NCBI GenBank assembly: GCA_018823025.1 | Contig: JAHJJI010000003.1 | Coordinates: forward strand, 1-40,415 | Reading direction: 5' to 3' | DNA length: 40,415 bases | Source of the DNA: Gammaproteobacteria bacterium | GTDB taxonomy: Bacteria; Pseudomonadota; Gammaproteobacteria; Burkholderiales; Sulfuricellaceae | Shown: positions 2,579 through 25,981 of the stretch, piece by piece | Position numbering within the stretch: the first letter of the stretch is position 1 | Layout of the letters: each line of letters starts with the position of its first letter | The notes under the pieces: generated by a model | What the model was told of the DNA's origin: nothing | What the model saw: only the letters and a program-made list of their open reading frames with translations | Database searches by the model: none | Translations under genes and position numbers: made by a program

Positions 2579-2803
2579 TCAGATTTCGTTTTGCAAGTCT
2601 GAATTTATCGAATGCCAGACCAGCTCAATCGGTTTCTCGATGCCATGCATGCTTGCCAGTCCCGGCGCAATATCGGCCACGGTCTTACGGGCAGCCGCGA
2701 ACGATTCGCCTTCTGCGGCCAACCAGGGGATGTCGGGAGAGAGCGCGAACCATTGTCCGAGCGTGTCTTCTCCGGTGAAGATCGTTATCTGCTTTGTGTT
2801 CAT
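2579..2803 (-). CDS. Small DUF1902/HicB-like protein inside the transfer operon
   Basis: 74 aa. The pattern GQWFALSPDIPWLAAEGESFAAARKTV, followed by a short amphipathic segment, resembles DUF1902 and the HicB-like antitoxin fold (typically WVATSPDIPGL then an acidic helix). No HicA-like partner (a small dsRBD-fold mRNA interferase) is visible on either side, so this is not obviously a toxin-antitoxin pair. The start overlaps the relaxase stop by 4 nt (ATGA) and the gene ends 1 nt before traW starts, so it is co-translated with transfer genes. Role unknown; an accessory or regulatory function is inference. Confidence 0.6.
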   Translation of the reverse strand: MNTKQITIFTGEDTLGQWFALSPDIPWLAAEGESFAAARKTVADIAPGLASMHGIEKPIELVWHSINSDLQNEI

Positions 2804-4899
2804 GCTTTCAATTCAGTGATGTCGGAAAGTGCGATACCTTGCATGAGGCTCGCTGCTGCCAAGCTCACCACTTTCTGCCGCGCAAGCAAATTGATGTCAC
2901 GCTTGGTGAGTTCTTTGCCGTCACTCTTGGCCGCTTGCAACAATTCATTCAGCCTGGCAATTTGGCTCGGCAGATCAACAGGCGGTAGCGATTGGTCTTT
3001 GACCACTGCAACACGAGCCGTGCCTGGCTTTGGCGCAGCACGCTTCTTGGGCTTATTGGGTGGTTTGACGATGTTCTTCTGCTCAGGCACATCGCTCGTG
3101 ACAGGCTGTCGAACTGCCTTTGACTCCTGTTGCGGTTCGTCTGCGGAATCCGTATTGGCAGGAGCACATTGAGGTGCGGTTGTTGCGCGCTGCGGAAAAA
3201 GATGGCTGATCGACCGGGTAAGCCTGATGGCCTTGGCCATACCGCTGGCGAACTCGGCTTCACCCACCTTGGCAACCTCACTGTCCGCCTCCATCCAGCC
3301 GCGCTCGGTAAGGCCGTCCAGTATCTGTTTGGGAGTGAATCCGTAACCAGCAAAGGCTTGTGGCCATTTGAGGCGCAGGCAGCCGTCTTCGGGACACACG
3401 GCAAGATCGTTCAATGCTTTCTTGCCTGTTCGGAAATCCTCGATCAATCCCTTGAGCATTTCGCCCATGCTGCCGGTGAGCTGCTCGGCATTGACAGGCG
3501 TTGCTGGCCCAAGCGTTTCTGGCTCAGGTGTACTGGAGACGTGCTGTAGAGGTACTGGGTTTTCTGTGCCGGCGCTGGTCGCTGGCTCAGACGTGCTGGA
3601 GAGGTGCTGGGGATGTTCTGAGTTTTCTGCGTCAACAGGGGTTTCGCTACTGCCGACAGCTTCGGTGCCGCCGATGACGCGGCCAGCGACAGGCGCAATT
3701 GGCATCGTGCTGATGAGCGCCTGATCGCGCAATCGAATCGACTTCAGTTTCAGGGTGGGTATTTTTTCAGTGAGTACGTCGGGCGCGATGTAGAAATACG
3801 GATCACCATCGCCTTCGCGCATACAGGCAATCCCTCTCTCAACCATCATGTCGAGGATGCCATCCGGTGTTTTGGGCAAACCGGGAATGTCTTCATCGTT
3901 GGTGCGCCGGGCAATCTCTTCACCCGCCATCGGCCAGACAAGGTAGGTAATGCCGTCGATATTCCATACTCGGGCGGAGGGTTCGTTGATGCGCCACACG
4001 CCCTCTCGCACCAGACGACGCATGATGTCGGTCAGATACCGTTCGACGGGCACGCCGATCTCGTAGCCTGCCATCGCCACGCCCATGGTTTTCAGGTCAC
4101 GCTCGACGCTCAACTGGTCGGCTCTGACCACATAGTCATGTATCTGGTTGGTTTGACCGGGGTTGCTGTTGAGCGATTCCGTCAGCCAGATCACCACATC
4201 CGTGCTGCCATCGCTGATCCAGTCGAACGACTGTTTCGCGATCACCGCATCAATCAAGGTACTGGACACATTGGTGTGATGTCTTCCTCTCCCCTCTTGC
4301 CAGTGCAAAAAATAATTCTCGATGTCGTGCGACAGTGCCCAGTCATAAACACCTTGATGGTAAGGCCGCCATCTTTGTGCGTTCGCGCGGTCGGTGACAG
4401 TCAAGTCGGTCACCACCTTGCCGAGGTCGTGGCAGGCTCCCGCCAGGAACACGGCCAACCGCCAGCGCGGTTCTATCACCCGCCGTTGCTGTGGCGTGGT
4501 CACGCCGCGTATCAGCTTGCCCTCGGTTTGTTGCAGCGCCCACAACCCGACTTCGAGAGAATGGCGCAACATGCCGCCCGCACCGCGATGATGATGCGCT
4601 TGCGAGGCTGGCAAGAGATGAACGAAGGCGGCAAGGCGTAACATCGCCGGGTTGTAGTGAGTTGCCAGCAGCTCCGCATCAGCAATCAGTTGGCGAATTC
4701 CGCCCGTGAGTTCGTGTTGCGTGGCGAGCAGTTCTGCAGGGGCATACACAGGCAATCCCTCCATGAATGGCGGGTAGCGCGGTATCCTTTGCAGGTCTTC
4801 AATCCGCCTGGCAGACGCAATCTGTTTGATTTGCACAGCATCATGCGCGCTCGGCAGAAAGCGAAATTTGCGCAGCAGTCGATCAGTCAAGGTTTCCAT
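2800..4899 (-). CDS. traI: MobH-family relaxase TraI (TraI_2 / HD-type)
   Basis: 699 aa. The N-terminal 300 residues match the TraI_2 relaxase domain: the histidine-rich motif HHHRGAGGMLRHSLEV at about residues 102-117 and the HD motif CHDLGK at 156-161, the metal-binding signature of MobH (SXT/R391, IncA/C, IncHI) relaxases, which lack the usual catalytic Tyr HUH fold. A Pro/Ser/Thr-rich linker (about 400-480) contains a 21-residue imperfect repeat. The next ~100 residues match the C-terminal TraI_2_C region, and the tail is basic (KPPNKPKKRAAPK). Family knowledge: it nicks oriT and is led to the channel by TraD. Unusually it lies within the pilus-assembly operon, between the S26 peptidase (3-nt gap) and the small gene before traW, about 11 kb from traD. 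Confidence 0.92.
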   Translation of the reverse strand: METLTDRLLRKFRFLPSAHDAVQIKQIASARRIEDLQRIPRYPPFMEGLPVYAPAELLATQHELTGGIRQLIADAELLATHYNPAMLRLAAFVHLLPASQAHHHRGAGGMLRHSLEVGLWALQQTEGKLIRGVTTPQQRRVIEPRWRLAVFLAGACHDLGKVVTDLTVTDRANAQRWRPYHQGVYDWALSHDIENYFLHWQEGRGRHHTNVSSTLIDAVIAKQSFDWISDGSTDVVIWLTESLNSNPGQTNQIHDYVVRADQLSVERDLKTMGVAMAGYEIGVPVERYLTDIMRRLVREGVWRINEPSARVWNIDGITYLVWPMAGEEIARRTNDEDIPGLPKTPDGILDMMVERGIACMREGDGDPYFYIAPDVLTEKIPTLKLKSIRLRDQALISTMPIAPVAGRVIGGTEAVGSSETPVDAENSEHPQHLSSTSEPATSAGTENPVPLQHVSSTPEPETLGPATPVNAEQLTGSMGEMLKGLIEDFRTGKKALNDLAVCPEDGCLRLKWPQAFAGYGFTPKQILDGLTERGWMEADSEVAKVGEAEFASGMAKAIRLTRSISHLFPQRATTAPQCAPANTDSADEPQQESKAVRQPVTSDVPEQKNIVKPPNKPKKRAAPKPGTARVAVVKDQSLPPVDLPSQIARLNELLQAAKSDGKELTKRDINLLARQKVVSLAAASLMQGIALSDITELKA
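3521..3646 (-). repeat. Imperfect 63-bp tandem repeat (2 copies) in the traI linker
   Basis: Two copies begin at GGCTCAG (3521 and 3584), period 63 bp, and encode the related peptides PLQHVSSTPEPE and PQHLSSTSEPA in the relaxase linker. The first ~46 bp of each unit are the better conserved part. Part of copy 2 (3588-3609) is identical to a stretch between repA and parM. Confidence 0.7.
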
Positions 4900-6274: not shown

Positions 6275-7699
6275 TTATCGTGCCGGCGTAAGGACAGGCG
6301 TCTGCGAGCACACGACTAGACTCTTTGCCCCACGGGTAAGCGCCACATAGAGGTGTTGCGCACTCATGGCCGAAGGATTCAGTACGACGGCGACATCCGC
6401 CTCCAGTCCTTTCAACAAGAGGGTGCTTCCAACTGCACGACGGGTCATCGGCCGAGCAAGGTGACGGTTTCTCTCTCGTGCGCGGATTACCGCCTCGTAG
6501 AACGTGCATTCGCCAGTCGCCGCAGTTTGCATCGCGGACTTGCAGACATTCAGCGCTTCCGGTCGATAGACCCGGACGCCAGGGGCATCCGCAAAGGCTC
6601 GAAGCGCCTCCAGAGAATTGCCGAACGATGGTGCCGACTTAAAGGCTAGGGCGGCAGCCTCCGCCGCCGTGGCATCCTTGCGGGCAGTTCCCTTTGCTAG
6701 AGTCTCGACGCGGCGCTGCAGGTCGGCAGCTCCAAGGTTAGCCATCATCTCCGAGGCGAAGCCGACTAGCGTTTTGAGGGCTCCAGTAGAGCTTGGGTCG
6801 AAAGTCCGACCGAACGCTGTCAGGTCTCTGAGGTCGACTGCTTCTACAGTGGTCGCGCCAGGCGTCTGGGAGGCAAGCTGGCGCTGCCCTTGTGGATTGG
6901 TGCTGTCACCAATGATAAGGATCGTACCATCGGTCACAGGGCTCCTGATCTTGGCTGCTTCCAGGCGCTGAAGGTGCGCAGCATTGGTGTCTACGGGAAG
7001 TTGGATCCATGAGACCTCGGATGGGGCACCACGTAGATCAAGAGACCGGCCCGCAAGGAGGTGCTGACGCGCTTCAAGAAGCCAGCGTCCAAGGGATTCG
7101 GCACCGGCATTACGCCAACGCCAGGGGGTTTCCAATTCACCAATTGGCGGAAAGACATGCTGCACATCCTTTAGCCAGTCCACGGTCGGCTCGCGAAACC
7201 CGAAAATGGCTTGTAGCGGGTCCCCAAGCACATAGGTTGGCAGTACGTTGGCCGCCCAGCCTACGATGTGGTGCTGAGGTAGGGTGCAATCCTGGTACTC
7301 ATCGACAACGAGTCGGCTGTAGGTGGCTCGGAGGGCATCACTGACGTCCCCTTTGCTGAGCAAGTTCCACGCGGCCCTACGTACCGCCTCATAGTCGCTG
7401 CCAGGGTTCTCCAACCTGAGAACCTCCGGCCTATGTCCACTGCGAGCAGGAAACTTTGAAATCAGCCGAATGGCCCAGCTATCGATGGTGGAGACGCGGT
7501 AGGCCCTCTTGGGAACCGCAGCCTTGGTGAGACGATCCTCCAAGGCACCCTTGCCTGCGTTGGTATGGGTGAGAACAAGGACAGGTTTGTCACTCACATG
7601 AAGCTTCAGCGTGTCTGCAATCAGTTGCGTCTTACCGCACCCGGCTGGGGCCGTGACCATACCCCGATGGACTGAGAATAGGTCAATCTCAGGCTGCAT
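6275..7699 (-). CDS. gajB: Gabija GajB-like UvrD/PcrA-family helicase
   Basis: 474 aa, close to the usual GajB size (~490). SF1 helicase motifs are visible: Walker A TAPAGCGKT (16-24), motif Ia LTHTNAGKGALEDRL (43-57), Walker B VVDEYQDC (131-138), motif III LGDPLQAIFGF (158-168), motif IV region with GETPWRWRN-like residues, and motifs V-VI in the C-terminus (LLKGLEADVAVV, LYVALTRGAKSLVV). The start overlaps the end of the upstream OLD nuclease by 11 nt, the hallmark two-gene arrangement of Gabija / class 2 OLD systems. Family knowledge: GajB binds DNA ends and helps activate GajA during phage infection. A housekeeping UvrD is excluded by the small size and the partner gene. Confidence 0.88.
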   Translation of the reverse strand: MQPEIDLFSVHRGMVTAPAGCGKTQLIADTLKLHVSDKPVLVLTHTNAGKGALEDRLTKAAVPKRAYRVSTIDSWAIRLISKFPARSGHRPEVLRLENPGSDYEAVRRAAWNLLSKGDVSDALRATYSRLVVDEYQDCTLPQHHIVGWAANVLPTYVLGDPLQAIFGFREPTVDWLKDVQHVFPPIGELETPWRWRNAGAESLGRWLLEARQHLLAGRSLDLRGAPSEVSWIQLPVDTNAAHLQRLEAAKIRSPVTDGTILIIGDSTNPQGQRQLASQTPGATTVEAVDLRDLTAFGRTFDPSSTGALKTLVGFASEMMANLGAADLQRRVETLAKGTARKDATAAEAAALAFKSAPSFGNSLEALRAFADAPGVRVYRPEALNVCKSAMQTAATGECTFYEAVIRARERNRHLARPMTRRAVGSTLLLKGLEADVAVVLNPSAMSAQHLYVALTRGAKSLVVCSQTPVLTPAR

Positions 7700-9416
7700 G
7701 CGTCCACCTGTACAGCCGCTCGACCAATGTGACGAAGTCTTTATCTGCGGTAGCCAAGTTTGGGCCGACGATGTCCTTGGCGACGCCCTCGAATTTGGTT
7801 ACCGACTTGAACCAGCTATTCTTCCCCTTACGGGAGGCAAGGCCAAGAAGCGATCTCGTCGGAATCGAGTAGCCGTCTGTTAAGCCCTCGCCTAAGACAC
7901 TATCCAGGTTCTGCTTGCCGTCGCTCTGAGACTGAATATGCGAGTTGACAAGGTCCTCCTCGACCAGTTCGACAGCCCGTTGAAGTAGTGAGTGAATGGC
8001 ACCGACATCGAGACTCAGGAAGAGCTCATCCTCCAGCGCTCGACCAATGCGCCAGGTGATGGCTTCCCCGCCCGCAGCCGCGAACGCGGCAACGGTCTCC
8101 GGTTTTGGCTCTTTGTCGGCGTCCACCAGCACAAGGACGCGGTAGCCAAGCCGTAGTAGGGCGGCTCCACGCGTGTAGCACCTGTCAGGGTCGCTACCAC
8201 CTACGTCAACAAAGGCACCCCCAAGAGCAAAGAACGACTGCTGCTTCAGTCCGACCCAGTACTGATCCAGCCCGCGTGCAAACCCAACCTCGCTCGCGCC
8301 TTCGCAAACCACGACGGACTTGGCGAGGAATGCTTCCGGGTCAGCCCGGAGGGTGCTCTGTACATCATCGGCCATGCCGACTTCGAGCACTTGATGCTGC
8401 TTGGGTCCTGCTCGAACAACATAGACTTGGTTGCCAGTGAGCTCGCGTACTGCTACGGGTGAATGCGTGGTCATGAAAACCTGCAGTGGAACCGTCGAGT
8501 CTTTTGCTCCGAGAGAATGAAGGAGACGAATCAGGCGATGAGGCTCAAGGCCGTATTCGACCTCATCCACCAAGGCAAGCGTGGCTGCTTCAGCAGCGGC
8601 GCGTTGGAGGCCGGCGATAAGCAGGCGTGATGAGCCTGTGCCAAGGGACCGAAGTGGTATGCCCGCCTCACTGTGCAACGCGATAGCTCCGTCGCCAATG
8701 GATATAGAGTGGGCATCGAGCAAAGCCTGAGCACAGGCCCCTACGTGGACACCAAGCCCGTTGGCTGTGTCCGTGACAACCTTCAGCGAGGCACCAAGTT
8801 GGGTGGCAGCCTGAGTGCCGAAGTTCGCTCGGGCCTCACGAGCCGCTTTGGCGAGTTCCTCACCAAGGTTTGCCCTCTCCTCAGTCAGCCGATTCAGGAC
8901 GGAGCCGCGCGTCCAGGAGAGATTTGTATTTGCGTAGCTGCCAATGCGCGCAGGTGAAAGCGCGGCACGGTCCTTCCAGGCAAGGCCCCGTTCAAGCCCT
9001 GCCGCTGTCGCACGCTCGGAGAATAGTGTCCAGACCGGCTCTAGGTCGCTCGATACGGTGAGACGCAGGGTGAGCACCGTCTCGATGGATGCACGTGGCT
9101 CGTCCTCGAACGTCTTGGTGGATGCATCGAAGCCGCGCAGGAAGTCACCGTAGATCTCCAGGTTCTTCAGCGTGTCGGGCAGGGAGCCCAATGTTATGGA
9201 GATGACAATGGGTCGAGTGACATCCAGTTGGAAGAAGTCGGTATCACCGAAGGGCGCACTCCGACGTGCCCCCAAGCACAAGTCGATGGCATCCAGGATG
9301 GTGGACTTGCCGCTATCGCCCGGTCCGATGAGGCAGTTGACGCCAGCTGATGGCACCCAGTCCAGGCTTCGGATGGAACGAAAGTTGCATATTTCGATTC
9401 GGCGGATTCGTACCAT
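7689..9416 (-). CDS. gajA: Gabija GajA-like OLD-family ATPase/TOPRIM nuclease
   Basis: 575 aa from the ATG at 9416, chosen for the AGGAG five bases upstream; an in-frame ATG 30 nt earlier has no such site. The N-terminal ABC-type ATPase begins MVRIRRIEICNFRSI and has Walker A GPGDSGKST (31-39), signature LGTGSSRLL (258-266), Walker B ALVDEVEYGL (281-290) and H-loop TTHSP (316-320). The C-terminal TOPRIM nuclease has VVCEGASEVGF (369-379), VLVDADKEP (429-437) and a later acidic GRALEDELF (458-466). GajA of characterised systems is about 578 aa. Family knowledge: GajA is a site-specific DNA nickase held off by nucleotides and released on phage-induced depletion. It is the first gene of the pair with gajB. 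Confidence 0.9.
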   Translation of the reverse strand: MVRIRRIEICNFRSIRSLDWVPSAGVNCLIGPGDSGKSTILDAIDLCLGARRSAPFGDTDFFQLDVTRPIVISITLGSLPDTLKNLEIYGDFLRGFDASTKTFEDEPRASIETVLTLRLTVSSDLEPVWTLFSERATAAGLERGLAWKDRAALSPARIGSYANTNLSWTRGSVLNRLTEERANLGEELAKAAREARANFGTQAATQLGASLKVVTDTANGLGVHVGACAQALLDAHSISIGDGAIALHSEAGIPLRSLGTGSSRLLIAGLQRAAAEAATLALVDEVEYGLEPHRLIRLLHSLGAKDSTVPLQVFMTTHSPVAVRELTGNQVYVVRAGPKQHQVLEVGMADDVQSTLRADPEAFLAKSVVVCEGASEVGFARGLDQYWVGLKQQSFFALGGAFVDVGGSDPDRCYTRGAALLRLGYRVLVLVDADKEPKPETVAAFAAAGGEAITWRIGRALEDELFLSLDVGAIHSLLQRAVELVEEDLVNSHIQSQSDGKQNLDSVLGEGLTDGYSIPTRSLLGLASRKGKNSWFKSVTKFEGVAKDIVGPNLATADKDFVTLVERLYRWTHAA

Positions 9417-9450
9417 GTGTTCTCCTGTGGCCTGGTTTCTGTCCAATCAT

Positions 9451-9467: not shown

Positions 9468-9765
9468 GTTATGTCATCCGGTTTGGCTGCTGCACAGGCT
9501 AACCTAGAAACGAACCATCCGCAACGTGGAAGGGTGCAGCCGATTCAGCCGTGGGGCTCTCTTGAGAGTCGCTCTGGGAAATGGCTGCGGAGCTTAGTGC
9601 TAGCGTCGTTAGCGTAGCTGGCTGACGGTACCATTAACAGGCTGATAAGCTCATGACCGAGCTCGGAAGCGCCGTCTTGGCGCCTAAGGTTCGATGACTG
9701 TAGCGGGCGCGCGTCGGCGGTATCGGTTAACATACACAGTTGTTACTAACTCAATAGTTATCTGG

Positions 9766-10605
9766 ATGCAACCTGAACCCGACAGCCCCGAGCACCACCG
9801 ACAGCGCTCAGAGTTCATCAGAAATCTGGTTCAAAGCCAGTTCGATCAGCAGCCCCTCAACGATCGGCACGTGCAAGGCACGCCCAGAACGGTCGTGCAG
9901 TTTTGGCACAACCAACGACAGTTGCCGGAGGACGTCAAAGAGTGCATTGCCTCTTGGGCCAGCTGGGAGACGAAAGGTTTTAGGCATCGATTGTTCGACG
10001 AGCGTAGCGCCAAGGCGTTCATCGGTCACTCGTTGGGTGCGCGCCACGAGCACGCCTTCGAACGTTGCTACCACCCGGCCATGCAGGCCGACTACTTCCG
10101 GCTCTGCTACCTGTTAGTCGAAGGCGGCCTCTATGTCGATGCGGACGACGTCTGCGTTTGTACCGACATCGGTTGTTTGTTTGACGACGGTCGGCTGAAG
10201 GTTCAGCCCCTGTGCTATGACATCAATTCTGGAACAATGGTGAGCCCGTCCGTGTTCCTACGTGTTGATGCCTACGCTTCGAGTTGGATTTTCTACTTCA
10301 ATAACAATCCACTCATTGCAAGCCGAGGGCATCCGATCATCGAAAATGCGCTCAGCCGGGCAACAGGTCTTCTCGAGCTCGCCGGCAAGGACGAGTTGCC
10401 GGAAATCCAGACGACGACCGGCCCGGGGAACCTTTCGAAGTCGATTTTTGATTTTGGTACCACCTTGGGAGGTGTCGAAAGCGACCTGATGATATTACGA
10501 GACTGGGATTCATTTGCCGTCTCAAGATGGCCATTGAGCTACCGCAACGATGCCCGGAATTGGCGACTCTCCAATCAACAGAAGTTCTATCGTAACGGCG
10601 TGTAA
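9766..10605 (+). CDS. GT32-like (DXD sugar-binding) glycosyltransferase
   Basis: 279 aa from the ATG at 9766; an in-frame start at 9694 would add 24 basic residues, and no Shine-Dalgarno decides between them. Recognisable features of the Gly_transf_sug / OCH1-like family: RTVVQFWHN near the N-terminus, MQADYFRLCYLLVEGGLYVDADD (donor-binding DXD motif, with the typical D-x-x-R-Y-x-x-L-x-x-x-G-G-x-Y context) and TTGPGNLSKS toward the C-terminus. Family knowledge: such enzymes transfer hexoses onto capsule, lipopolysaccharide or toxin-like acceptors. No signal peptide. It ends 8 bp before the large fusion gene, so the two probably form an operon. Acceptor and sugar are unknown. Confidence 0.8.
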   Translation: MQPEPDSPEHHRQRSEFIRNLVQSQFDQQPLNDRHVQGTPRTVVQFWHNQRQLPEDVKECIASWASWETKGFRHRLFDERSAKAFIGHSLGARHEHAFERCYHPAMQADYFRLCYLLVEGGLYVDADDVCVCTDIGCLFDDGRLKVQPLCYDINSGTMVSPSVFLRVDAYASSWIFYFNNNPLIASRGHPIIENALSRATGLLELAGKDELPEIQTTTGPGNLSKSIFDFGTTLGGVESDLMILRDWDSFAVSRWPLSYRNDARNWRLSNQQKFYRNGV

Positions 10606-10612
10606 TTTCCGA

Positions 10613-12841
10613 ATGAACCTTTCGAAGCCCCTACGCGCGGCATCGCGCCTTCTGTATTCATTGTTCCTGCAATTCCGAATCCGCCTGCCGCGGCAGCAGT
10701 GCCTTGCGTTCATCTCGCACTCTGATGGTCGGCAACCAGGCATCGGCCCGATTTTCGTCATCAACTTGGACAGGCAGCCGGACCGTTGGACTGACGTGCG
10801 TCGCGAGCTCGACCGCATCGTAGACGCCGCAGGCAAACCGCTATCGGAGCGGGTCGTAAGATATTCGGCATGCGATGCGCAGGCCAATCCCGACGAATTG
10901 TTTGGCACCGTTGACATTGAGCCTTTTTACACGCTCGGCGACCAGCTGTTCGTCGAACCGCAACCTAACGCAGTCCCAGACGCGTTCGACTTGGAGCGCC
11001 CGATTAGGATGAGTGGCGCAGAAGTCGCCGTTGCACGCTCGCATATCGGTATCTGGAAAACGATTGCACAGTCCGATGCCCCCTATGCCCTTGTACTCGA
11101 GGACGACGTCTGGTTCGAGCGTAGCTTCGGGCGGCTTGTCGATCAGGCTTGGCGCGAGATGGAAGCCGCCGACCGCACCAGCCCTGCGTTCGATGTGTTG
11201 TACCTATCTTACAAGGAAGTGCGCCACGGTGCTCCAAAGAAACTGATTTCAAAGAGCGTGTTTAGCCCGGAACGCGGCCTCTGGTACCTGTCCGGGTATG
11301 TGCTGTCGAAGAAAGGCGCGCAGAGGCTGCTTGGGCTTCTTCCGTGTCGTGGCCCCGTCGACCTCTGGATCAATCACAAGTTCCGAGAGATGGACGTCCG
11401 GGCTTTGCGCCGCTCGGTGATCAGCCAGCGTCTCGATCTTAACTCGACGAACTCATACTCGATCCTGCCGACACTGAGCCGGATCGGCATCCTCGACGGC
11501 GGTGACGCGGCGCTTTTTCAGAAGCGGCCGACCCACTCCCCCGTGTTCGCGTTCGGAACCCCAGGGTTCGGGCTGTCATCGCTCGCTATGGCCCTCTCGA
11601 TGCTTGGTTATCGCTGCTGTAGCGATTTTGAGCGGATTCCGGAATGTGAGTTAGAGAGCCTTCTCGCCGGCCGCGCCGATCGCGTTTTCGACGCCTACGT
11701 CAACATCGAATCGCTGACGCCGCATGTTCGCGTGCTCACACAGCGCTATCCGCGCGCCAAGTTCATCGTGATCGACGACGTAGCGGGAACCGCTGACCGC
11801 CAAGGTGGCGGTGTGCTGAACGAGCTGGAAGGGGCAGACGTACTTCGTATACATGGTGAAAACGCCAACACTTGGCGTTCGCTTTGCGAGCACTTGAGAC
11901 TTGCGCCCCCGAGCGCACCCTACCCTGTTGTTCGGGATATTGGACAGCGAAGGCATCGGCGCGCCCCGGTCGACACGCTAACGGCTCGCCCAGCAAAGCG
12001 GCTTCGGCACGACCTGTCACCGTGGGTCGTGGAACCGCGCGCGGGTTGGGCGGGAATCAGCGCGAGTGCATTCGATCAGCTGGAATCATCAGCCTCATCG
12101 CGGGTGCGCTTCGAGGACGATCTGGCTGATATCCAGCCGGCGCGGTGGCTGTTGCGAAACGACACGTTCCCCGGAAACCTTGGACTGTTTCGCCCGGCCA
12201 ACGTCACCCCACAACCGAGCGGCGGTCTTTCACTCGCGGTCATCGAGGAACCGCTTGGCGTTCGGAATCTTAGCGCGGCGGCGGTCTCGAGCAGAAGTAG
12301 TTTTTTGTTTGGGCGCTTCGAAGTCACACTGCAAGCGACGAACGTCCCGGGCCTGGTGACCGGCTTTTTCCTTCACCGCGATTCGCCCCGACAGGAGATC
12401 GACGTCGAGATCGCAGGAAATCGCCCTGACCGGCTACTGGTCAACGTATTCTACAACCCGGGCTCCGAGGGCGCGAAGTTTGACTACGGCTACCGGGGAA
12501 CCCCCGTTAGCATTCCGTTGGGGTTCGACGCATCAAAAGCCTTACATCGGTTTGCCATTGAATGGGATCCATGCGAGATCCGGTGGTTCGTCGACGATGA
12601 ATTAGTTCACCGTCGCGCTACATGGGGCCCGACCCCAATTCCGCACCTGCCCATGATGTTACATGTTAATACGTGGCCGACCCGCTCACGTGAACTTGCA
12701 GGCCGGTTAGCACTCCACGCGCTGCCAGCGTCAGCGATCGTGCGCCGAATCGCCGTTGACTCGTTCAATGCGGACGCGCAGCCGCCATTAGCTTCCGCTT
12801 CGGAGGGTATTTCGAACACGTCCGAAGCTCAGCTACGGTAA
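10613..12841 (+). CDS. Three-part glycan enzyme: GT25 + sulfotransferase-like + GH16
   Basis: 742 aa from the ATG at 10613, just after the GT32 stop; an earlier in-frame ATG at 10550 lies inside that gene. Part 1 (about 45-290) is a family 25 glycosyltransferase: FVINLDRQPDRW, MSGAEVAVARSHIGIW, YALVLEDDVWF, DLWINHKF. Part 2 (about 310-430) resembles the P-loop sulfotransferase fold (FAFGTPGFGLSSLAMALSML, later DAYVNIESLTPHVRVL and YPRAKFIVIDD), but the P-loop is atypical and could be inactive. Part 3 (about 500-725) is a GH16 jelly-roll with the catalytic EIDVE motif (about 595-599) and FGRFEVTLQA before it. No signal peptide, so cytoplasmic or peripheral. Likely makes or edits a surface polysaccharide; order of action is inference. 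Confidence 0.78.
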   Translation: MNLSKPLRAASRLLYSLFLQFRIRLPRQQCLAFISHSDGRQPGIGPIFVINLDRQPDRWTDVRRELDRIVDAAGKPLSERVVRYSACDAQANPDELFGTVDIEPFYTLGDQLFVEPQPNAVPDAFDLERPIRMSGAEVAVARSHIGIWKTIAQSDAPYALVLEDDVWFERSFGRLVDQAWREMEAADRTSPAFDVLYLSYKEVRHGAPKKLISKSVFSPERGLWYLSGYVLSKKGAQRLLGLLPCRGPVDLWINHKFREMDVRALRRSVISQRLDLNSTNSYSILPTLSRIGILDGGDAALFQKRPTHSPVFAFGTPGFGLSSLAMALSMLGYRCCSDFERIPECELESLLAGRADRVFDAYVNIESLTPHVRVLTQRYPRAKFIVIDDVAGTADRQGGGVLNELEGADVLRIHGENANTWRSLCEHLRLAPPSAPYPVVRDIGQRRHRRAPVDTLTARPAKRLRHDLSPWVVEPRAGWAGISASAFDQLESSASSRVRFEDDLADIQPARWLLRNDTFPGNLGLFRPANVTPQPSGGLSLAVIEEPLGVRNLSAAAVSSRSSFLFGRFEVTLQATNVPGLVTGFFLHRDSPRQEIDVEIAGNRPDRLLVNVFYNPGSEGAKFDYGYRGTPVSIPLGFDASKALHRFAIEWDPCEIRWFVDDELVHRRATWGPTPIPHLPMMLHVNTWPTRSRELAGRLALHALPASAIVRRIAVDSFNADAQPPLASASEGISNTSEAQLR

Positions 12842-13219: not shown

Positions 13220-13978
13220 TCAAACGAGCCCATACGCTTCACGGATGCGGTCAACAATCGTCGTCAGATTTGTTTGTCCCAATCCCATGCTCTTCAGGTC
13301 AATAGTTTCTTGCAAGATCAGTCCAAGAAAGCGGTTCAAATCCTCCGCAACCTGAACGGGCAAATCGATCCGCATTGCGGGCGAAAGTAATTGGGAGAGG
13401 CGCACGACATCGTTCAGGTGCTTGCGCACATTCTTGTGATCGATAGCTTCGCCCTGCTGCTGCCTTGCACTCAGATCGAGCCATGCATTGGCCTTCAATG
13501 GAATCAGCCGATCCGGCCCCACCCAGGAAATCGCATCCTTCGCAGTAGCACCCGCCAGGATGAAGGCGTAATAGTCGTCATCCAGCAAAATGGCCGACAG
13601 GCTCGACACCGCCTCATCAAGGGGGATTGGCGTCAGGTGTGCATCGGTCGACAAAGCCAGTCCATCAGGCATACGGGAAAACAGTTCCAGCATCACAGGA
13701 AAGCTCAGGTTCGTCGGCTTCTGAAAACGATAGAAGTGCGGCTTGCCTTCGCTACGCTCGCGAACCTGATAGCCCCCATCCTTGACGAACTGCCAGAAGT
13801 GCTGGCCAAACTCGACATCCATCGCCTCGACCACCAACACGAGATCGATATCCTTGGTTGCCCGGAAATCCAGCCCCGCTTCTTCCATCGCCAGGGTGGC
13901 GGCCACACCGCCAATCAGCACATACCGGTCGGTGTAGTGTTCGAAGTGACGACGAAAAACATCCAGCCCTTTCACCAC
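13220..13978 (-). CDS. AbiEii-like nucleotidyltransferase (candidate toxin)
   Basis: 252 aa. The N-terminus has a minimal nucleotidyltransferase signature: YVLIGGVAATLAMEE (GG at 23-24) followed by TKDIDLVLVV (Asp43 and Asp45), with a possible third acid in VMLELFSR (Glu98). This fits the AbiEii/AbiGii and DUF1814-like group, which includes toxins that add nucleotides to tRNA. The start is GTG at 13978, or the next GTG at 13975, which overlaps the regulator stop as GTGA, so translation is coupled to the upstream regulator. Family knowledge: type IV-like toxin-antitoxin or abortive-infection modules. Toxicity here is inference, and the regulator is not a classical AbiEi sequence. Confidence 0.72.
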   Translation of the reverse strand: MVKGLDVFRRHFEHYTDRYVLIGGVAATLAMEEAGLDFRATKDIDLVLVVEAMDVEFGQHFWQFVKDGGYQVRERSEGKPHFYRFQKPTNLSFPVMLELFSRMPDGLALSTDAHLTPIPLDEAVSSLSAILLDDDYYAFILAGATAKDAISWVGPDRLIPLKANAWLDLSARQQQGEAIDHKNVRKHLNDVVRLSQLLSPAMRIDLPVQVAEDLNRFLGLILQETIDLKSMGLGQTNLTTIVDRIREAYGLV

Positions 13979-14949
13979 GTCAAGCCCTCCTCAAATTTAA
14001 TCAGCGCTTGCTGAACACGTTCGTCGCGCTCGTTGCGCAAACTCAATATCAACGACAAAGGATCTACCGACCCAGCTAGCGGACTGATATCCGGGTTATA
14101 ACTCCATATCTGCCATAGACAGGCAGCGGGTTCGGGCGACGGTAACGCACACATTCCCCGTTGCTGCGCATGCTTCCATTGTTCTGCGCTGATTGCATAA
14201 ACCGGGTGCGCTGGCTCCGCAAGCAAAGTCGCACGGGCAAGCGCACTTTCACCAGCCAGACGAACTTGTTTCTGCACTGTTGGATCAGGTATAGCCCATA
14301 CACTTTTCTTCACCGGGTCGCGCAACATGGGCAACGCTCTGCGCCAAATCGCCTGCGCATTATCATCAAAGCACAACCGGCGCGCTCGACCAACATCTAC
14401 GACCGAGGCGAGTCCTGCGTGCTCCAGCTCCTTCACCGCGCGCGACAACGTCATCGTGGTGTAGCTCAGTCGCTCCCCCAGCTCAGCCGGATGCATCTCC
14501 GCTTTCCACGGTTTCAGTAAAGCGCTAATCAGCAACGCCTGTGTCGCTGGACTCAAGTTCTTGTCGGCGGTTTCGCGGCACTGGCGAAAATACTCGCGCA
14601 GGTCGATGCCCAGATCGGGCAGATAGAGTTGGTTGCCGGGCACAATGAAAGGCACGTGCTGCCCGACCAGTCGCTTGCGGTCGTAGGAACTCAAAGCCGC
14701 TGCCACATAAATACCCACTGCTCCGCTTGCTTGCGCCAGCGTATCCAGATGCTTGCGCACTTTGCTCGCGCTGGTTGCTTTATCCCGTTCCAGCATCAAC
14801 ACATACGGCGCACCGATAAGCTCAATGCTGGCGAACTCATAAGCGTCTTGCAGAAAATATGGCAAAGCAGTGCCCCCAGCCCAAGGCTTGACGATGGCAG
14901 TCAGTCCCAGCACATCCTGAAGGTAGCGTTCAATATCTACGTGGCGCAT
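13972..14949 (-). CDS. Winged-helix regulator paired with the nucleotidyltransferase
   Basis: 325 aa from the ATG at 14949 (TTG at 14955 is also possible). A central winged-helix domain is visible around residues 130-200: LSPATQALLISALL, then LGERLSYTTMTLSRAVKELEHAGLASVVDVGRARRLCF, resembling MarR-type DNA-binding folds. The N-terminal 120 residues resemble a degenerate nuclease-like or sensing domain (IELIGAPYVLMLERDKATSASKVRKHLDTL). It precedes the nucleotidyltransferase with overlapping stop and start, and a perfect palindrome lies 28 bp upstream of the ATG. No Shine-Dalgarno is present, so the message may be leaderless. Probable role: autoregulator and antitoxin or silencer; inference from context. 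Confidence 0.7.
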   Translation of the reverse strand: MRHVDIERYLQDVLGLTAIVKPWAGGTALPYFLQDAYEFASIELIGAPYVLMLERDKATSASKVRKHLDTLAQASGAVGIYVAAALSSYDRKRLVGQHVPFIVPGNQLYLPDLGIDLREYFRQCRETADKNLSPATQALLISALLKPWKAEMHPAELGERLSYTTMTLSRAVKELEHAGLASVVDVGRARRLCFDDNAQAIWRRALPMLRDPVKKSVWAIPDPTVQKQVRLAGESALARATLLAEPAHPVYAISAEQWKHAQQRGMCALPSPEPAACLWQIWSYNPDISPLAGSVDPLSLILSLRNERDERVQQALIKFEEGLTW

Positions 14950-14976
14950 GATCAAATGATTTGTAACGTTGTATTA

Positions 14977-16245: not shown

Positions 16246-18066
16246 TCACTCTGCCTTCAAGATAGGCAATCTGCCTTTGATGATCCGCCCGCCCGACATC
16301 CTGGCCAGAAAGTGCAGCGGAGGCAGGTTGCCAAGCATCGCAGCGGGGAACAGCTCCACTTCTTCCGCCATCATGGATTCCTGATAGGACGACTGATATT
16401 CGTCCTGGATTTTTGCATCAACGCCATGGCCGTACCTGATGCTCAGTGATTGGGCTTTGATCTTGGGCATGCTGTCGGCGATGTATTGTTGAGTCTCCGC
16501 ATCGATCACGCGCAGAACGATTTGATTGTTGATGTTGGCGAGTACCTGGCGCGCCTTGTTCTCATCGCCGAGACGCGCAGGAAAATCCGCGAATGTCTGC
16601 GCTGCAATCGTCACTCTAAAGAGCGCACCTCCGCCTTTGTTCATGAGCTGGATGGTGGGCTGGTTGATGACCTCTGCGGCTTCGTCGATGAAGAGATTGA
16701 CTGGCTTGTTCGAGCTGATTCCATAGTTATAGCGATCACCGGCCACTGCGGTCAGATCGGCCAGCATGATCGAGCCGATGGCGCTCCCGACCGTGCCATC
16801 AGCCAGGCTATCAAGGCCGAGATAGAGCACCTGGTTGTTGTTGATGATCTTCGCCATGTCGGTCGCGTGTTTCTGATCGCCAATCTTGAATTCCGGCGAC
16901 AAGAGTTCCGCCAGCGGCTCGGAGGTCAGCATGGACAGAATCGGGATGAGCGAGGCGACCATCTTCTGGAAGTGGTCGCGATTATGCTCAAAGGTGGAAA
17001 TCAGGCCATCCAGGTCCGACGACTGCGCTTCATGGATGGCGATCTGCTTGTAGAAGTCGATATAGGCTTCCAGTATCCGGTCACGATGTTTTTTCACAAA
17101 ACTGCTGGAGCGAGTCTCCCATTCCGGCACAGTGTCGATGAAGTGACGGCGTAACGTGTTCAGCAGCAGGTTGTCCGCGCCGCCCTCAATATACCGCTTC
17201 ATGTGAACCAGATTGGGGCTTACGCCAGTGGCCACCAAGCCATTCACAATGTCGTTGAGCACTTTCCAGCCAAAGGCCGCAAACGGGTCAGCGCCGGTTT
17301 CGGATGGAATCAGTGCGGCAACCCGACTGGCGAGTTCGGTCCGGCGATTCCAGTTACGCATCGGGTCGATGGGCGTGGACTTCTCCGGATGGGCGGGATG
17401 GAAATACACGAAGCGCTCCGGTTGCCCCATCGCCGCACATATCCGTTTGGCGTTTTCCGCCAGGGCATGATCCCCTTTCGGGTCAATGATGATGACGGTT
17501 TCGTTGCGAATGATCGCCTGACCAATCAACAGCTCCATCATTCTGGTTTTACCAACCCGCGTCGTTCCAACCAGCAAGGTATGGCCGACCAGATTAGCGA
17601 TGTCCATGAACCGGTCAGTTTCCTTGTCCAGACCATGTATCCAGTACGCGCCGTCCAGGTGGCGCTCGTTGGTGATCTTGCCGATGGTCTGGGCAACACC
17701 CTGTCCGATCAGCGCGTGCATCTTCTGCGATTCAACATCCGTCCAGTCAAAACCCTTGCCAAGCCACACAGAGTTTTTTTTGGCCGCCACTTCGGTCTTG
17801 CTTATCAACTCGGGAATGCTGATGAACTCTTTGCCGTAATTGTCCAGGCGCGTCAAATTGACGTAACGCCGCCAGGCCCAGATACCACGATACAAGGCCA
17901 TGCCGGTACAGACAGTCATCGCAATCGCGCTGAATTTCACAGGGAGCGGGACTGGCATGTATTTGGCCGCAATCAGTGTGAACAATGCAGCACCTGCCCA
18001 TGAGGCCGACATCGTTGCTTCAAAGTTCGGACGCCACGGCGACTCCCACTCGTAGAATGCTTTCAT
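16246..18066 (-). CDS. traD: TraD type IV coupling protein (SXT/TOL subfamily)
   Basis: 606 aa. Two N-terminal membrane segments (about 20-36 and 43-63) are followed by the VirD4/TraG-type ATPase: Walker A VGTTRVGKTRMME (from about 166), VIIIDPKGD (191-199), Walker B VNLFIDEAAEVIN (456-468) and the downstream FRVTIAAQTFADFPARLG motif. Length fits the SXT TraD family. Family knowledge: a hexameric inner-membrane pump linking the MobH relaxosome to the secretion channel. It overlaps the upstream 152-aa gene by 4 nt. In SXT-type elements traI and traD are adjacent; here they are about 11 kb apart. Confidence 0.94.
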   Translation of the reverse strand: MKAFYEWESPWRPNFEATMSASWAGAALFTLIAAKYMPVPLPVKFSAIAMTVCTGMALYRGIWAWRRYVNLTRLDNYGKEFISIPELISKTEVAAKKNSVWLGKGFDWTDVESQKMHALIGQGVAQTIGKITNERHLDGAYWIHGLDKETDRFMDIANLVGHTLLVGTTRVGKTRMMELLIGQAIIRNETVIIIDPKGDHALAENAKRICAAMGQPERFVYFHPAHPEKSTPIDPMRNWNRRTELASRVAALIPSETGADPFAAFGWKVLNDIVNGLVATGVSPNLVHMKRYIEGGADNLLLNTLRRHFIDTVPEWETRSSSFVKKHRDRILEAYIDFYKQIAIHEAQSSDLDGLISTFEHNRDHFQKMVASLIPILSMLTSEPLAELLSPEFKIGDQKHATDMAKIINNNQVLYLGLDSLADGTVGSAIGSIMLADLTAVAGDRYNYGISSNKPVNLFIDEAAEVINQPTIQLMNKGGGALFRVTIAAQTFADFPARLGDENKARQVLANINNQIVLRVIDAETQQYIADSMPKIKAQSLSIRYGHGVDAKIQDEYQSSYQESMMAEEVELFPAAMLGNLPPLHFLARMSGGRIIKGRLPILKAE

Positions 18067-18624: not shown

Positions 18625-18773
18625 GGAACCGATTTACAGCGCATCGAAAAGATCAAAGTGGAACGTTTTACAGAATTTATTTGCTTGTTTTTCAAATTGT
18701 TAAATGCGGAACGATTTACAGAATCACTCAAACACAAGCGGAACGATTTACAGGAACCCGGAACGATTTACAG
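18625..18773. repeat. Iteron array and AT-rich segment, probable oriV
   Basis: Five copies of a GGAACGATTTACAG-type repeat in the same orientation: 18625-18639 (one extra C), 18660-18673 (one mismatch), and three with the full CGGAACGATTTACAG at 18707-18721, 18739-18753 and 18759-18773. An AT-rich stretch (18674-18706) lies between copies 2 and 3 and may be the unwinding element. The last two copies overlap the repA stop and 3' coding end. Pattern is that of RepA-bound iterons; no convincing DnaA box was found. Confidence 0.85.
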
Positions 18774-19599
18774 GAATCTGCGCAAGCCTTGGAGTCGCCT
18801 CTGGCAAACGGTAAAAAGTAACCGTCATCTCTTGCGCGTCCATTTCAATTAGGTATTCCGGGATAGGGTTATCCGTCAGCAGCCCTTGCACGGAATTTTT
18901 GAATTTACGCATAGGCGAGGAACAGCCAGTCAAACGGTGTAATTCATTGAGTGAGACAACCCACGGCTGCCACTCGCCACACTGTATTTTGGCGAGGATG
19001 TAGATCAGCCTGTGCAATGGCGTGAGCGAGAAGTAGTCCGGGTGCATGGCGCATACTTCTGTCCAGTCTGTCGCGCAATGATATAGCCGCTCGGGCAGCT
19101 CAATACTCACCGCATCAATGCGGCCCTCACGATCCCGTTCTGCCTCGTAACGAATCAAATTGAAACTGTCTCCGCATTCCTTGATTTCATCTGGTGGGCG
19201 AATGTTCGTTGTGATCTTGCTTCCTGCAAGCCGATCCAGCGCCTGAGCAAAGCCATCGTATTGAGCCCCGCCGTTCCCGCGTTTGCTGAAATCAAAAAAA
19301 TCGCGAGTAGTAAATCGCAAACTGCGGCTCAAATCATCGTGCCGCTCATCAAACAGGGCATTGGCCAACCAGCTCACGCAGTAAATCAGGACATCCTTGT
19401 CGCGCACGGTCGGAAGCCCCGTTGCGCCGGGTGTGATCTCGAAGAATTGACCATCCAGATCGAAGCGCCGAGCCTTCAAATCCCCAGCAGACAAAGCAAA
19501 ATGTGGGTAATGGACAGGATTGCGGGAAGTGTTGTCGGCACTCAATACATCAGCAAAGTAAACGTAAGTGAAGGACGCGGGCGATAGGTGAACCGGCAT
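18748..19599 (-). CDS. repA: Plasmid replication initiator RepA (RPA family)
   Basis: 283 aa. It matches the plasmid 'replication initiator protein A' family: LIYCVSWLANALFDE, SLRFTTRDFFDFSKRG, FAQALDRLAGSKITTNI, ERLYHCATDW, DYFSLTPLHRLIYILAK and SLNELHRLTGCSSPMRKFK, the last resembling the second winged-helix of these initiators. Downstream iterons overlap its final codons, and the stop codon itself lies in an iteron. No clear Shine-Dalgarno precedes the ATG at 19599, so the exact start is uncertain. It is divergent from parM across a palindrome and repeat region. Family knowledge: it binds iterons to open the origin and limits copy number by handcuffing. Confidence 0.88.
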   Translation of the reverse strand: MPVHLSPASFTYVYFADVLSADNTSRNPVHYPHFALSAGDLKARRFDLDGQFFEITPGATGLPTVRDKDVLIYCVSWLANALFDERHDDLSRSLRFTTRDFFDFSKRGNGGAQYDGFAQALDRLAGSKITTNIRPPDEIKECGDSFNLIRYEAERDREGRIDAVSIELPERLYHCATDWTEVCAMHPDYFSLTPLHRLIYILAKIQCGEWQPWVVSLNELHRLTGCSSPMRKFKNSVQGLLTDNPIPEYLIEMDAQEMTVTFYRLPEATPRLAQIPVNRSGFL

Positions 19600-24631: not shown

Positions 24632-25879
24632 TCAACCGTAGACGGGAAACCGTTTTGTCAGCGCTGTCACCTGCTCTCGCACATGGCCAATGTTGGCCTC
24701 GTCGTGCGGATTCTCCAGCACGTCGGCGATCAGATTGCCGACTTGGCGCGCTTCCTCTTCCATGAAGCCGCGCGTAGTCATGGCCGGCGAACCTAAGCGG
24801 ATGCCCGAGGTGACGAAGGGCTTCTCCGGATCATTGGGAATGGCGTTCTTGTTGACCGTAATGTGCGCGTCACCGAGAATTTTCTCGGCTTCTTTGCCTG
24901 TGATCTTCTTGGCGCGCAGGTCAACCAGCATGACGTGGCTCTCTGTACGGCCAGAGACGATGCGCAAGCCGCGCCCGGTCAGTGCTTCGGCCAGCACGGC
25001 GGCATTCTTGACCACTTGTTGCTGGTAGGCCTTGAACTCTGGCGCCAGCGCTTCCTTGAAGGCCACGGCCTTGCCGGCGATCACATGCATCAGCGGACCG
25101 CCCTGGATGCCAGGGAAGATAGCCGAGTTTATGGCCTTCTCTTGCTCGGCCTTCATCAGGATCACGCCGCCGCGCGGGCCACGCAGGCTCTTGTGCGTGG
25201 TGGTGGTCACGAAGTCGGCATGTGGCACTGGATTCGGGTAGACGCCGGCAGCGATCAGGCCGGCGTAGTGGGCCATGTCGACCATGAAGTACGCGCCGAT
25301 GGAGCGAGCGACGCGGGCAATGCGCTCGAAGTCGATGCGTAGCGCGAAGGCGGAGGCGCCAGCGATAATCAGCTTGGGATTTTTCTCTTGGGCGAGCTTT
25401 TCGAGGGCTTCGTAATCGATATCTTCCTGTGTGTTCAGGCCATAGCTGATGGCGTTGAACCACTTGCCGCTCATGTTGAGTGACATACCGTGTGTCAGGT
25501 GGCCGCCTTCGGCCAAGCTCATGCCCATGATGGTATCGCCCGGCTTGAGCACGGCGAAAAACACGCCCTGGTTAGCCTGGGAGCCGGAATTTGGCTGCAC
25601 GTTGGCCGCCTCGGCACCGAACAGGAGCTTGACGCGGTCGATGGCGATCTGTTCGACGATGTCGACGTATTCACAGCCGCCGTAGTAACGTTTGCCAGGG
25701 TAGCCTTCTGCATATTTGTTGGTCAGTTGCGAACCCTGGACGGCCATCACGGCTGGTGAGGTGTAGTTCTCCGAGGCGATCAGCTCAATGTGATCTTCCT
25801 GGCGTTGGTTTTCCTGCTGGATGGCGGCGAAGATTTCGGGGTCGATCTGCTCGATCGTGTAGTGGCTGCGTTCAAACAT
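24632..25879 (-). CDS. glyA: Serine hydroxymethyltransferase GlyA
   Basis: 415 aa, full-length (E. coli GlyA 417). Catalyses serine plus tetrahydrofolate to glycine plus 5,10-methylene-THF. Visible motifs: [40 protein letters not shown], and the PLP lysine in [14 protein letters not shown] (Lys about 229), plus [18 protein letters not shown] second, plasmid-borne copy of a housekeeping enzyme would be unusual; it lies 102 bp downstream of metE, on the same strand, with an intervening terminator. In enteric bacteria MetR activates glyA as well as metE, which fits the nearby metR. Confidence 0.97.
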
Positions 25880-25934
25880 GGCGAAATTCCTGAATAAATA
25901 TCAGTCCCGAGGCAGTCTCAGGATGGTTTGATGG

Positions 25935-25969
25935 AAAACGCCGCGTTCATCAGGTCAATGTGCGCGGCG
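25935..25969 (-). terminator. Rho-independent terminator after metE
   Basis: On the minus strand CGCCGCG (25969-25963) pairs with CGCGGCG (25945-25939) across a 17-nt loop and is followed by TTTT (25938-25935). The hairpin lies just past the metE stop and before glyA, so metE and glyA are probably separate or partly coupled transcripts. Confidence 0.65.
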
Positions 25970-25981
25970 GATGGTATGGCT

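Follow-up and report, generated by a model that had tools for sequence, protein, structure and literature searches.

The window analysed here, a stretch of 40,415 nucleotides from a gammaproteobacterium, encodes a single protein in which a GT25 domain, a sulfotransferase-like domain and a GH16 domain follow one another. This fusion is under selection, and it is both widespread and mobile: the same domain order is found in 17 distinct loci, at 38-73% identity to the window protein, in Alpha-, Gamma- and Epsilonproteobacteria as well as one acidobacterial MAG, on plasmids, in ICE-like regions and on contigs classed as viral. The reading we favour, at a little under even confidence, is that the fusion serves as the large subunit of a mobile cassette, made up of two or three genes, that acts on an envelope glycan and probably confers resistance to phages.

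Domains and predicted location of the fusion protein

The forward-strand frame is open over 10550-12841, and a start at 10613 yields a single chain of 742 residues. We preferred this start to the one at 10550 for its place 7 bases past the stop codon of the preceding GT32 gene; the preference relies on position and on the starts of homologues, which were partly of our own choosing. The features of the chain are as follows.

10613..12841, + strand: GT25 - sulfotransferase-like - GH16 fusion, 742 aa (Pfam, family alignment, structure model)
10634..10681, + strand: N-terminal cationic amphipathic helix, residues 8-23 (structure model, of low confidence there)
10748..11362, + strand: GT25 domain, residues 46-250 (PF01755, E 1.4e-14)
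11099..11107, + strand: GT25 E-D-D motif, residues 163-165 (unchanged in 16 of 16 aligned copies)
11534..11953, + strand: degenerate sulfotransferase-like P-loop domain, residues 308-447
11555..11581, + strand: remnant P-loop GTPGFGLSS, residues 315-323
12143..12769, + strand: GH16 domain with lichenase-type jelly roll, residues 511-719 (PF00722, E 2.2e-25)
12395..12409, + strand: GH16 catalytic motif E-I-D-V-E, residues 595-599

The three-part order that the initial annotation had read from the letters is borne out by Pfam and by the sulfotransferase fold, both outer domains scoring above their Pfam cutoffs. For GT25, the match to PF01755 reaches 54.9 bits against a curated cutoff of 24, the same profile is matched by 11 of the 11 family members scanned (E up to 1), and a phmmer search of PDB sequences with the N-terminal part finds procollagen galactosyltransferase 1 (best E 1.8e-7). 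By this profile and by the conserved E-D-D, which we take to be the functional GT25 motif, the domain belongs to GT25 and is a predicted glycosyltransferase. It thus shares domain and motif with the GT25 LPS/LOS glycosyltransferases and the procollagen galactosyltransferases; it differs from them in being fused to two further domains, and no cluster of LPS genes is annotated in its surroundings.

The PF00722 match spans residues 551-693 (89.6 bits, cutoff 22), the C-terminal part retrieves beta-1,3-1,4-glucanases among PDB sequences (best E 7.9e-12), and Foldseek recognises the GH16 jelly-roll fold (1mac, TMt 0.88), the best 50 matches listed for the model all being GH16-type enzymes. The NCBIfam equivalog cutoffs were missed, with 78.8 of 300 bits for BglS and 43.3 of 350 bits for ExoK. 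What we presume to be the GH16 catalytic motif, E-x-D-x-E, is intact as initially claimed, reading E-I-D-[IV]-E in 16 of 16 aligned copies. Fold and site are those of the GH16 lichenases, laminarinases and XTH and Crh transglycosylases (PF00722). In contrast to those enzymes, the fusion is probably cytoplasmic, since no signal peptide is evident and the domain is fused to a glycosyltransferase. Hydropathy revealed neither a signal peptide nor a convincing membrane span in 16 fusions, the maximal 19-residue values being 1.03-1.70 and the N-terminal value staying below 1.2 in 15 of the 16 (1.64 in locus L020). The N-terminal helix may possibly contact the membrane: its best 18-residue hydrophobic moment, taken over 27 windows per sequence with no null run, is 0.35-0.55, with K/R exceeding D/E, in all 14 distinct sequences. 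The whole-chain model (mf4e5e88727cd) has a mean pLDDT of 65 and a pTM of 0.43, a low overall confidence, and therefore the relative placing of the domains is not readable from it.

The middle domain has the sulfotransferase fold. Pfam gives a sub-threshold Sulfotransfer_4 match over residues 311-387 (E 5e-4); PF17784 scores 20.4 bits in the window protein, short of its cutoff of 22.8, and is matched by 9 of 11 family members (E up to 1, best 5.5e-6). The best match of the domain in a profile search of PDB sequences is a sulfotransferase (E 0.062). It shares fold and colinear blocks with sulfotransferase family PF17784 and resembles, by fold, SgdX2, Cpz8 and a schistosome sulfotransferase, from which the middle domain differs in being shortened, in lacking the Lys/Arg of the PAPS loop and, in L019 and L020, in having lost the loop. 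This Lys/Arg, which we take to be needed for PAPS binding, is missing at position 318 in 16 of 16 aligned copies, so the domain is probably not a working sulfotransferase; a Lys or Arg stands one or two places away in L018, L019 and L020, where the loops are otherwise lost or changed. Purifying selection is weaker here than on the other domains in the one pair compared: between the Klebsiella and E. coli copies, dN/dS is 0.347 for the middle part, 0.104 for residues 1-290, which include GT25, and 0.066 for GH16. Of the decorating sulfotransferase suggested initially, the fold thus stands and the activity was dropped, the PAPS-loop residue being gone and selection relaxed.

Spread of the fusion and its partner genes

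The 17 loci (the window, L002-L005, L014-L016, L018-L020, L022-L025, L037 and L038) were counted after collapsing near-identical copies, namely four Aliarcobacter plasmids, the E. coli genomes and repeat fetches of one genome. A search of genome contigs gave four of them (an Acidobacteria MAG, a Gammaproteobacteria MAG, Bradyrhizobium diversitatis and a Hyphomonadaceae MAG), and three lie on contigs which IMG/VR classes as viral. Some match was present in 35 of 72,556 plasmid records, with at least 80% of the query covered in nine (Rhizorhabdus, Citrobacter, Klebsiella, four Aliarcobacter, Sphingobium and Rhizobium), and the fusion protein was found in 0 of 50,697 records of a phage collection at E 1e-5. 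DNA similarity to the Klebsiella pair identified 4 of 5,426 E. coli genomes, all with chromosomal copies and two sharing one strain name; both regions that were opened adjoin type IV secretion genes. Among 200 related genomes, eight matched at E 1e-3 including that of the window, the only one with a full-length match, the other seven having single domains only, and none of 11 listed genomes of the same genus carries the fusion. Two matches at 1e-40 came from 398 genomes of the phylum (the window genome and G396), and two from 385 genomes of the class of G396 (G396 and G661).

A trivial explanation would be that three genes were joined artificially, in assembly or in annotation. The L004 relative, the one exception to a single frame in 16 of the 17 loci, is indeed broken between its middle and GH16 parts, and only the GH16 end is annotated in the Rhizorhabdus record. 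Against this, full-length single-frame homologues occur in independent complete plasmids and chromosomes, and because the same order is found in 17 distinct loci we rule out an artefact, whose probability we regard as practically nil; the frameshift or assembly join considered at the outset is excluded by the same records.

The fusion does not travel alone, its constant partner in the window being the following gene.

9694..10605, + strand: GT32 glycosyltransferase (PF04488, E 7.7e-7), constant upstream partner

It matches PF04488 with 30.2 bits (cutoff 23). Whether such a gene always precedes the fusion had been raised as a question; it lies directly upstream, with a D-x-D-D motif, in 17 of 17 loci. 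L017, another Aliarcobacter copy that was not counted separately, has it in two pieces. Distances in the fusion and GT32 trees are correlated over 16 loci (Mantel rho 0.87), a value that 0 of 2000 permutations reached.

A NodU/TobZ-type carbamoyltransferase gene adjoins the fusion and GT32 genes in 12 of the 17 loci and in three arrangements: divergent upstream (L002, L003, L004, L005, L022), same strand downstream (L014, L015, L023, L037, L038) and same strand upstream (L019, L020). In L014 a transposase gene separates its two pieces; in L037 the three cassette genes overlap by 4 bp. Both PF02543 and PF16861 are present in the five proteins scanned of these 12 (L003, L004, L005, L022 and L023). 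Tree distances again correlate with those of the fusion (rho 0.70, n=10; 0 of 2000 permutations as high); since L005 and L022 group differently in the two trees, whose support values were not read, the gene may have been swapped. It is absent beside the cassette in the window, L016, L018, L024 and E. coli, and was not found in the whole genome of the window; with the window and four other lineages lacking it, it cannot be essential. The divergent slot that it occupies in the closest relatives of the window is taken by Gabija in the window itself. Where a decorating enzyme is sought, this carbamoyltransferase is a likelier candidate than the middle domain, though the window lacks the gene.

Some relatives of the carbamoyltransferase are annotated as NodU (about 31% identity), which, together with the likeness of the middle domain to natural-product sulfotransferases such as Cpz8, could point to a small secreted or signalling glycan, Nod-factor-like and carbamoylated, or to an antiviral or antibacterial oligosaccharide. 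No recurring exporter or regulator was seen beside the cassette, the sulfotransferase is probably inactive and some cassette hosts have no plant partner; we regard such a product as very improbable.

The same Pfam pair also opens an intracellular reading, either of defence or of counter-defence, in which the substrate of the transferases and carbamoyltransferase would be a nucleotide, nucleic acid or some part of a phage, with GH16 trimming the product or serving as its glycan-binding module. Passages of one study (PMC8670742) describe a carbamoyltransferase with this pair that modifies 5-hydroxymethylcytosine, probably in phage DNA; moreover, nothing for envelope export was seen among the genes next to the cassette, and the envelopes of its hosts are very different. 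However, the partners named in those passages (thymidylate synthase, deaminases and pyrophosphohydrolase) were unseen among those neighbours that happened to be annotated or scanned; the same passages place the carbamoyltransferases of unmodified contigs next to, for example, group 1 glycosyltransferases (PMC8670742); and GH16 enzymes act on polysaccharides. We consider this reading improbable. The Pseudomonas LPS core offers a precedent for an envelope sugar that carries a carbamoyl group: there the putative carbamoyltransferase WapO adjoins the glycosyltransferase WapH (PMC8005017). The likeness lies in the pairing of a glycosyltransferase with a putative carbamoyltransferase whose substrate is an envelope glycan; the difference is that these are core-LPS genes, and the passages describing them mention neither a fusion nor GH16.

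Genes around the cassette

The neighbours of the cassette in the window are listed below.

2800..4899, - strand: TraI_2 helicase/relaxase-type conjugation gene (PF07514, E 2.9e-67)
6275..7699, - strand: Gabija GajB, UvrD-like helicase (PADLOC PDLC04173, E 2.3e-188)
7689..9446, - strand: Gabija GajA, OLD-type ATPase/TOPRIM nuclease (PADLOC PDLC04168, E 1.1e-238)
13220..14955, - strand: two-gene unit of a weak AbiEii-like nucleotidyltransferase (PF08843, E 0.066) and a winged-helix protein (MarR-type HTH, E 4e-4), both below cutoff
16246..18066, - strand: TraD/TraG-like coupling ATPase (PF10412, PF12696)
18748..19599, - strand: replication initiator protein A (PF10134, E 5.7e-47)

The Gabija pair lies immediately upstream of the cassette, and both, with the AbiEii-like pair, stand between the TraI_2 and TraD-like genes. 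The AbiEii-like pair, which had no PADLOC match at 1e-3, is a possible toxin-antitoxin neighbour; a DUF1814 gene and a regulator are annotated near the Rhizorhabdus cassette (L014, 27817-29390). The TraI_2 gene, TraD-like ATPase and replication initiator A suggest a conjugative element, integrated or plasmid-borne. Mobile carriage, as initially described, is borne out, and the term plasmid cargo fits many relatives; for the window an integrated element is equally likely, because the cassette sits between conjugation genes on a contig with glyA- and metE-type genes (24632-28273). When plasmids were searched for DNA close to that of the carrying element, glyA-type sequence was the only one to match among the features listed. 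Further along the contig are a heavy-metal P-type ATPase gene (31410-33818) and an RND efflux pump gene (38061-40406).

Location in a defence island is frequent, a feature that the initial description of the fusion leaves unmentioned. At E<=1e-30, 97 proteins encoded near the cassette match 68 PADLOC families and 97 replicon-matched controls match 8, counts that come from redundant, overlapping models and, for the controls, are lowered by plasmid backbone and catabolic genes, and therefore the comparison shows clustering with defence genes, not function. The near set comprises ORFs of at least 150 aa from 9 of the 17 loci with midpoints within 10 kb, cassette genes excluded. The controls are a random sample of 251 control ORFs on the same nine replicons, ORFs of 2500 aa or more being left out, and total lengths are nearly equal (38,527 aa near, 38,657 aa control). 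The near matches come from no fewer than 12 distinct ORFs, a minimum obtained from the names of 25 of the 68 near families and from single scans, and two of these ORFs are apparently pieces of one GajA gene; at most 8 control ORFs matched (C3a139, DpdF, dGTPase, three DrmD models, mad3 and BrxH).

The systems themselves vary from locus to locus, and Gabija in the window, Lit, GajB with PDC-S53, BilD and type I restriction come on top of the counts just given. The same Gabija PADLOC subtype as in the window stands beside the cassette of L038 (fusion 53% identical), its GajA apparently in two open frames, and GajB recurs with PDC-S53 near that of L024. PDC-S06 and PtuA (L037) and type I restriction (L003) lie within about 10 kb; BilD is beside the Bradyrhizobium cassette (L004, 12177-13547), and a long SIR2-Argonaute (PADLOC pAgo, Aga_SIR2 class; L005, 3971-7216) comes directly beyond the divergent carbamoyltransferase. 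Nearby are also Lit (L022), SngB (L014), Shedu (L018), ABC-three-component genes (E. coli) and DUF262 proteins matching NsnA in L015 and Orf5/HEC-06 in L020. Some loci show no such neighbour: in L002 neither of the large downstream genes, for a peptidase and for a BNR/sortilin protein, had a PADLOC match, nor had the two upstream genes scanned in L023, and the annotation of L016 has only antirestriction and plasmid genes near the cassette. A few kb from the Sphingobium cassette are multiubiquitin-domain and ThiF-type genes of ubiquitin-like conjugation (L019, 5962-8385). The cassette proteins tested match no PADLOC family at E<=1e-3, be it the fusion (window, L016, L018, L020), GT32 (window) or the carbamoyltransferase (L037, L003, L020), and membership in a defence system known to PADLOC was rejected.

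These neighbourhoods bear on a more ordinary explanation, in which the cassette edits an exopolysaccharide or another surface polymer or sets its length for biofilm, desiccation or host interaction and meets defence genes through shared accessory hotspots. GT25, GT32 and GH16 are all families of glycan enzymes, several plasmid neighbours are ordinary cargo, and passages of PMC11340318 describe an altered colony texture in Sphingomonas when a GH16 gene belonging to an exopolysaccharide cluster is deleted. Yet no polysaccharide cluster is annotated around the cassette in nine annotated loci, and its surroundings are richer in defence genes than other parts of the same replicons. We judge this explanation unlikely, while taking it seriously.

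Proposed role of the cassette

The cassette as we picture it consists of GT32, then the GT25-pseudosulfotransferase-GH16 fusion, and optionally the NodU/TobZ-type carbamoyltransferase; we derive its role from conserved motifs, partner genes and location. The fusion would sit at the cytoplasmic side, with its N-terminal amphipathic helix holding it to the inner membrane, where GT32 and GT25 would add sugars onto an envelope glycan precursor and the GH16 module would cut or transglycosylate the same chain, setting or re-grafting it. Polymer length control or glycan editing, as suggested initially, is thus a possible role. The carbamoyltransferase, where present, would cap the glycan, and the inactive sulfotransferase-like domain may be a scaffold or binding module. 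Phages would be denied their receptor by the altered glycan, and this would account for the frequent company of Gabija, Shedu, pAgo, Lit and other defence systems; argued from location, the defence role is a case of guilt by association. Since sphingomonads, two of which are carriers, are not known to make LPS, the acceptor cannot be LPS alone. The annotation of seven plasmid loci, whose gene tables are incomplete, and of two E. coli loci places no glycan flippase, polymerase or ligase next to the cassette. The more specific form of this proposal, an undescribed mobile anti-phage class in which GT25 extends, GH16 cuts or re-grafts, GT32 primes or branches, the carbamoyltransferase caps and a dead sulfotransferase reads or scaffolds, we put forward only tentatively.

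Parts of such a scheme are known elsewhere. NdvB of cyclic beta-glucan synthesis is a GT/GH17 fusion in which one chain adds sugars and transglycosylates; unlike the fusion described here, it combines GT2 with GH17 and is a chromosomally encoded membrane protein. Prophage gtr serotype-conversion cassettes are small and mobile, alter a surface glycan and block phage adsorption. They use bactoprenol-linked donors and the flippase GtrA, whereas no such flippase is annotated beside the fusion cassette. Open-access literature gave no description of the fusion or cassette among the titles and abstract openings of the matches listed, and the main text of a survey of GH16 subfamilies (PMC6827312) is without the terms GT25, GT2 and fused, mentioning glycosyltransferase twice, in general terms.

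Being mobile, accompanied by GT32 in every copy examined, often located among virus-defence genes and present in distant hosts, the cassette may be an undescribed route by which bacteria alter their own glycans against viruses. Its genes are few and self-contained. Most catalogued defence systems act through nucleases, nucleotide signals or cell death; if our proposal is true, receptor and glycan chemistry would join this repertoire as a transferable, trans-phylum, multi-enzyme module of defence islands, built around an unusual single chain that would both make and cut a glycan, apparently on the cytoplasmic side.
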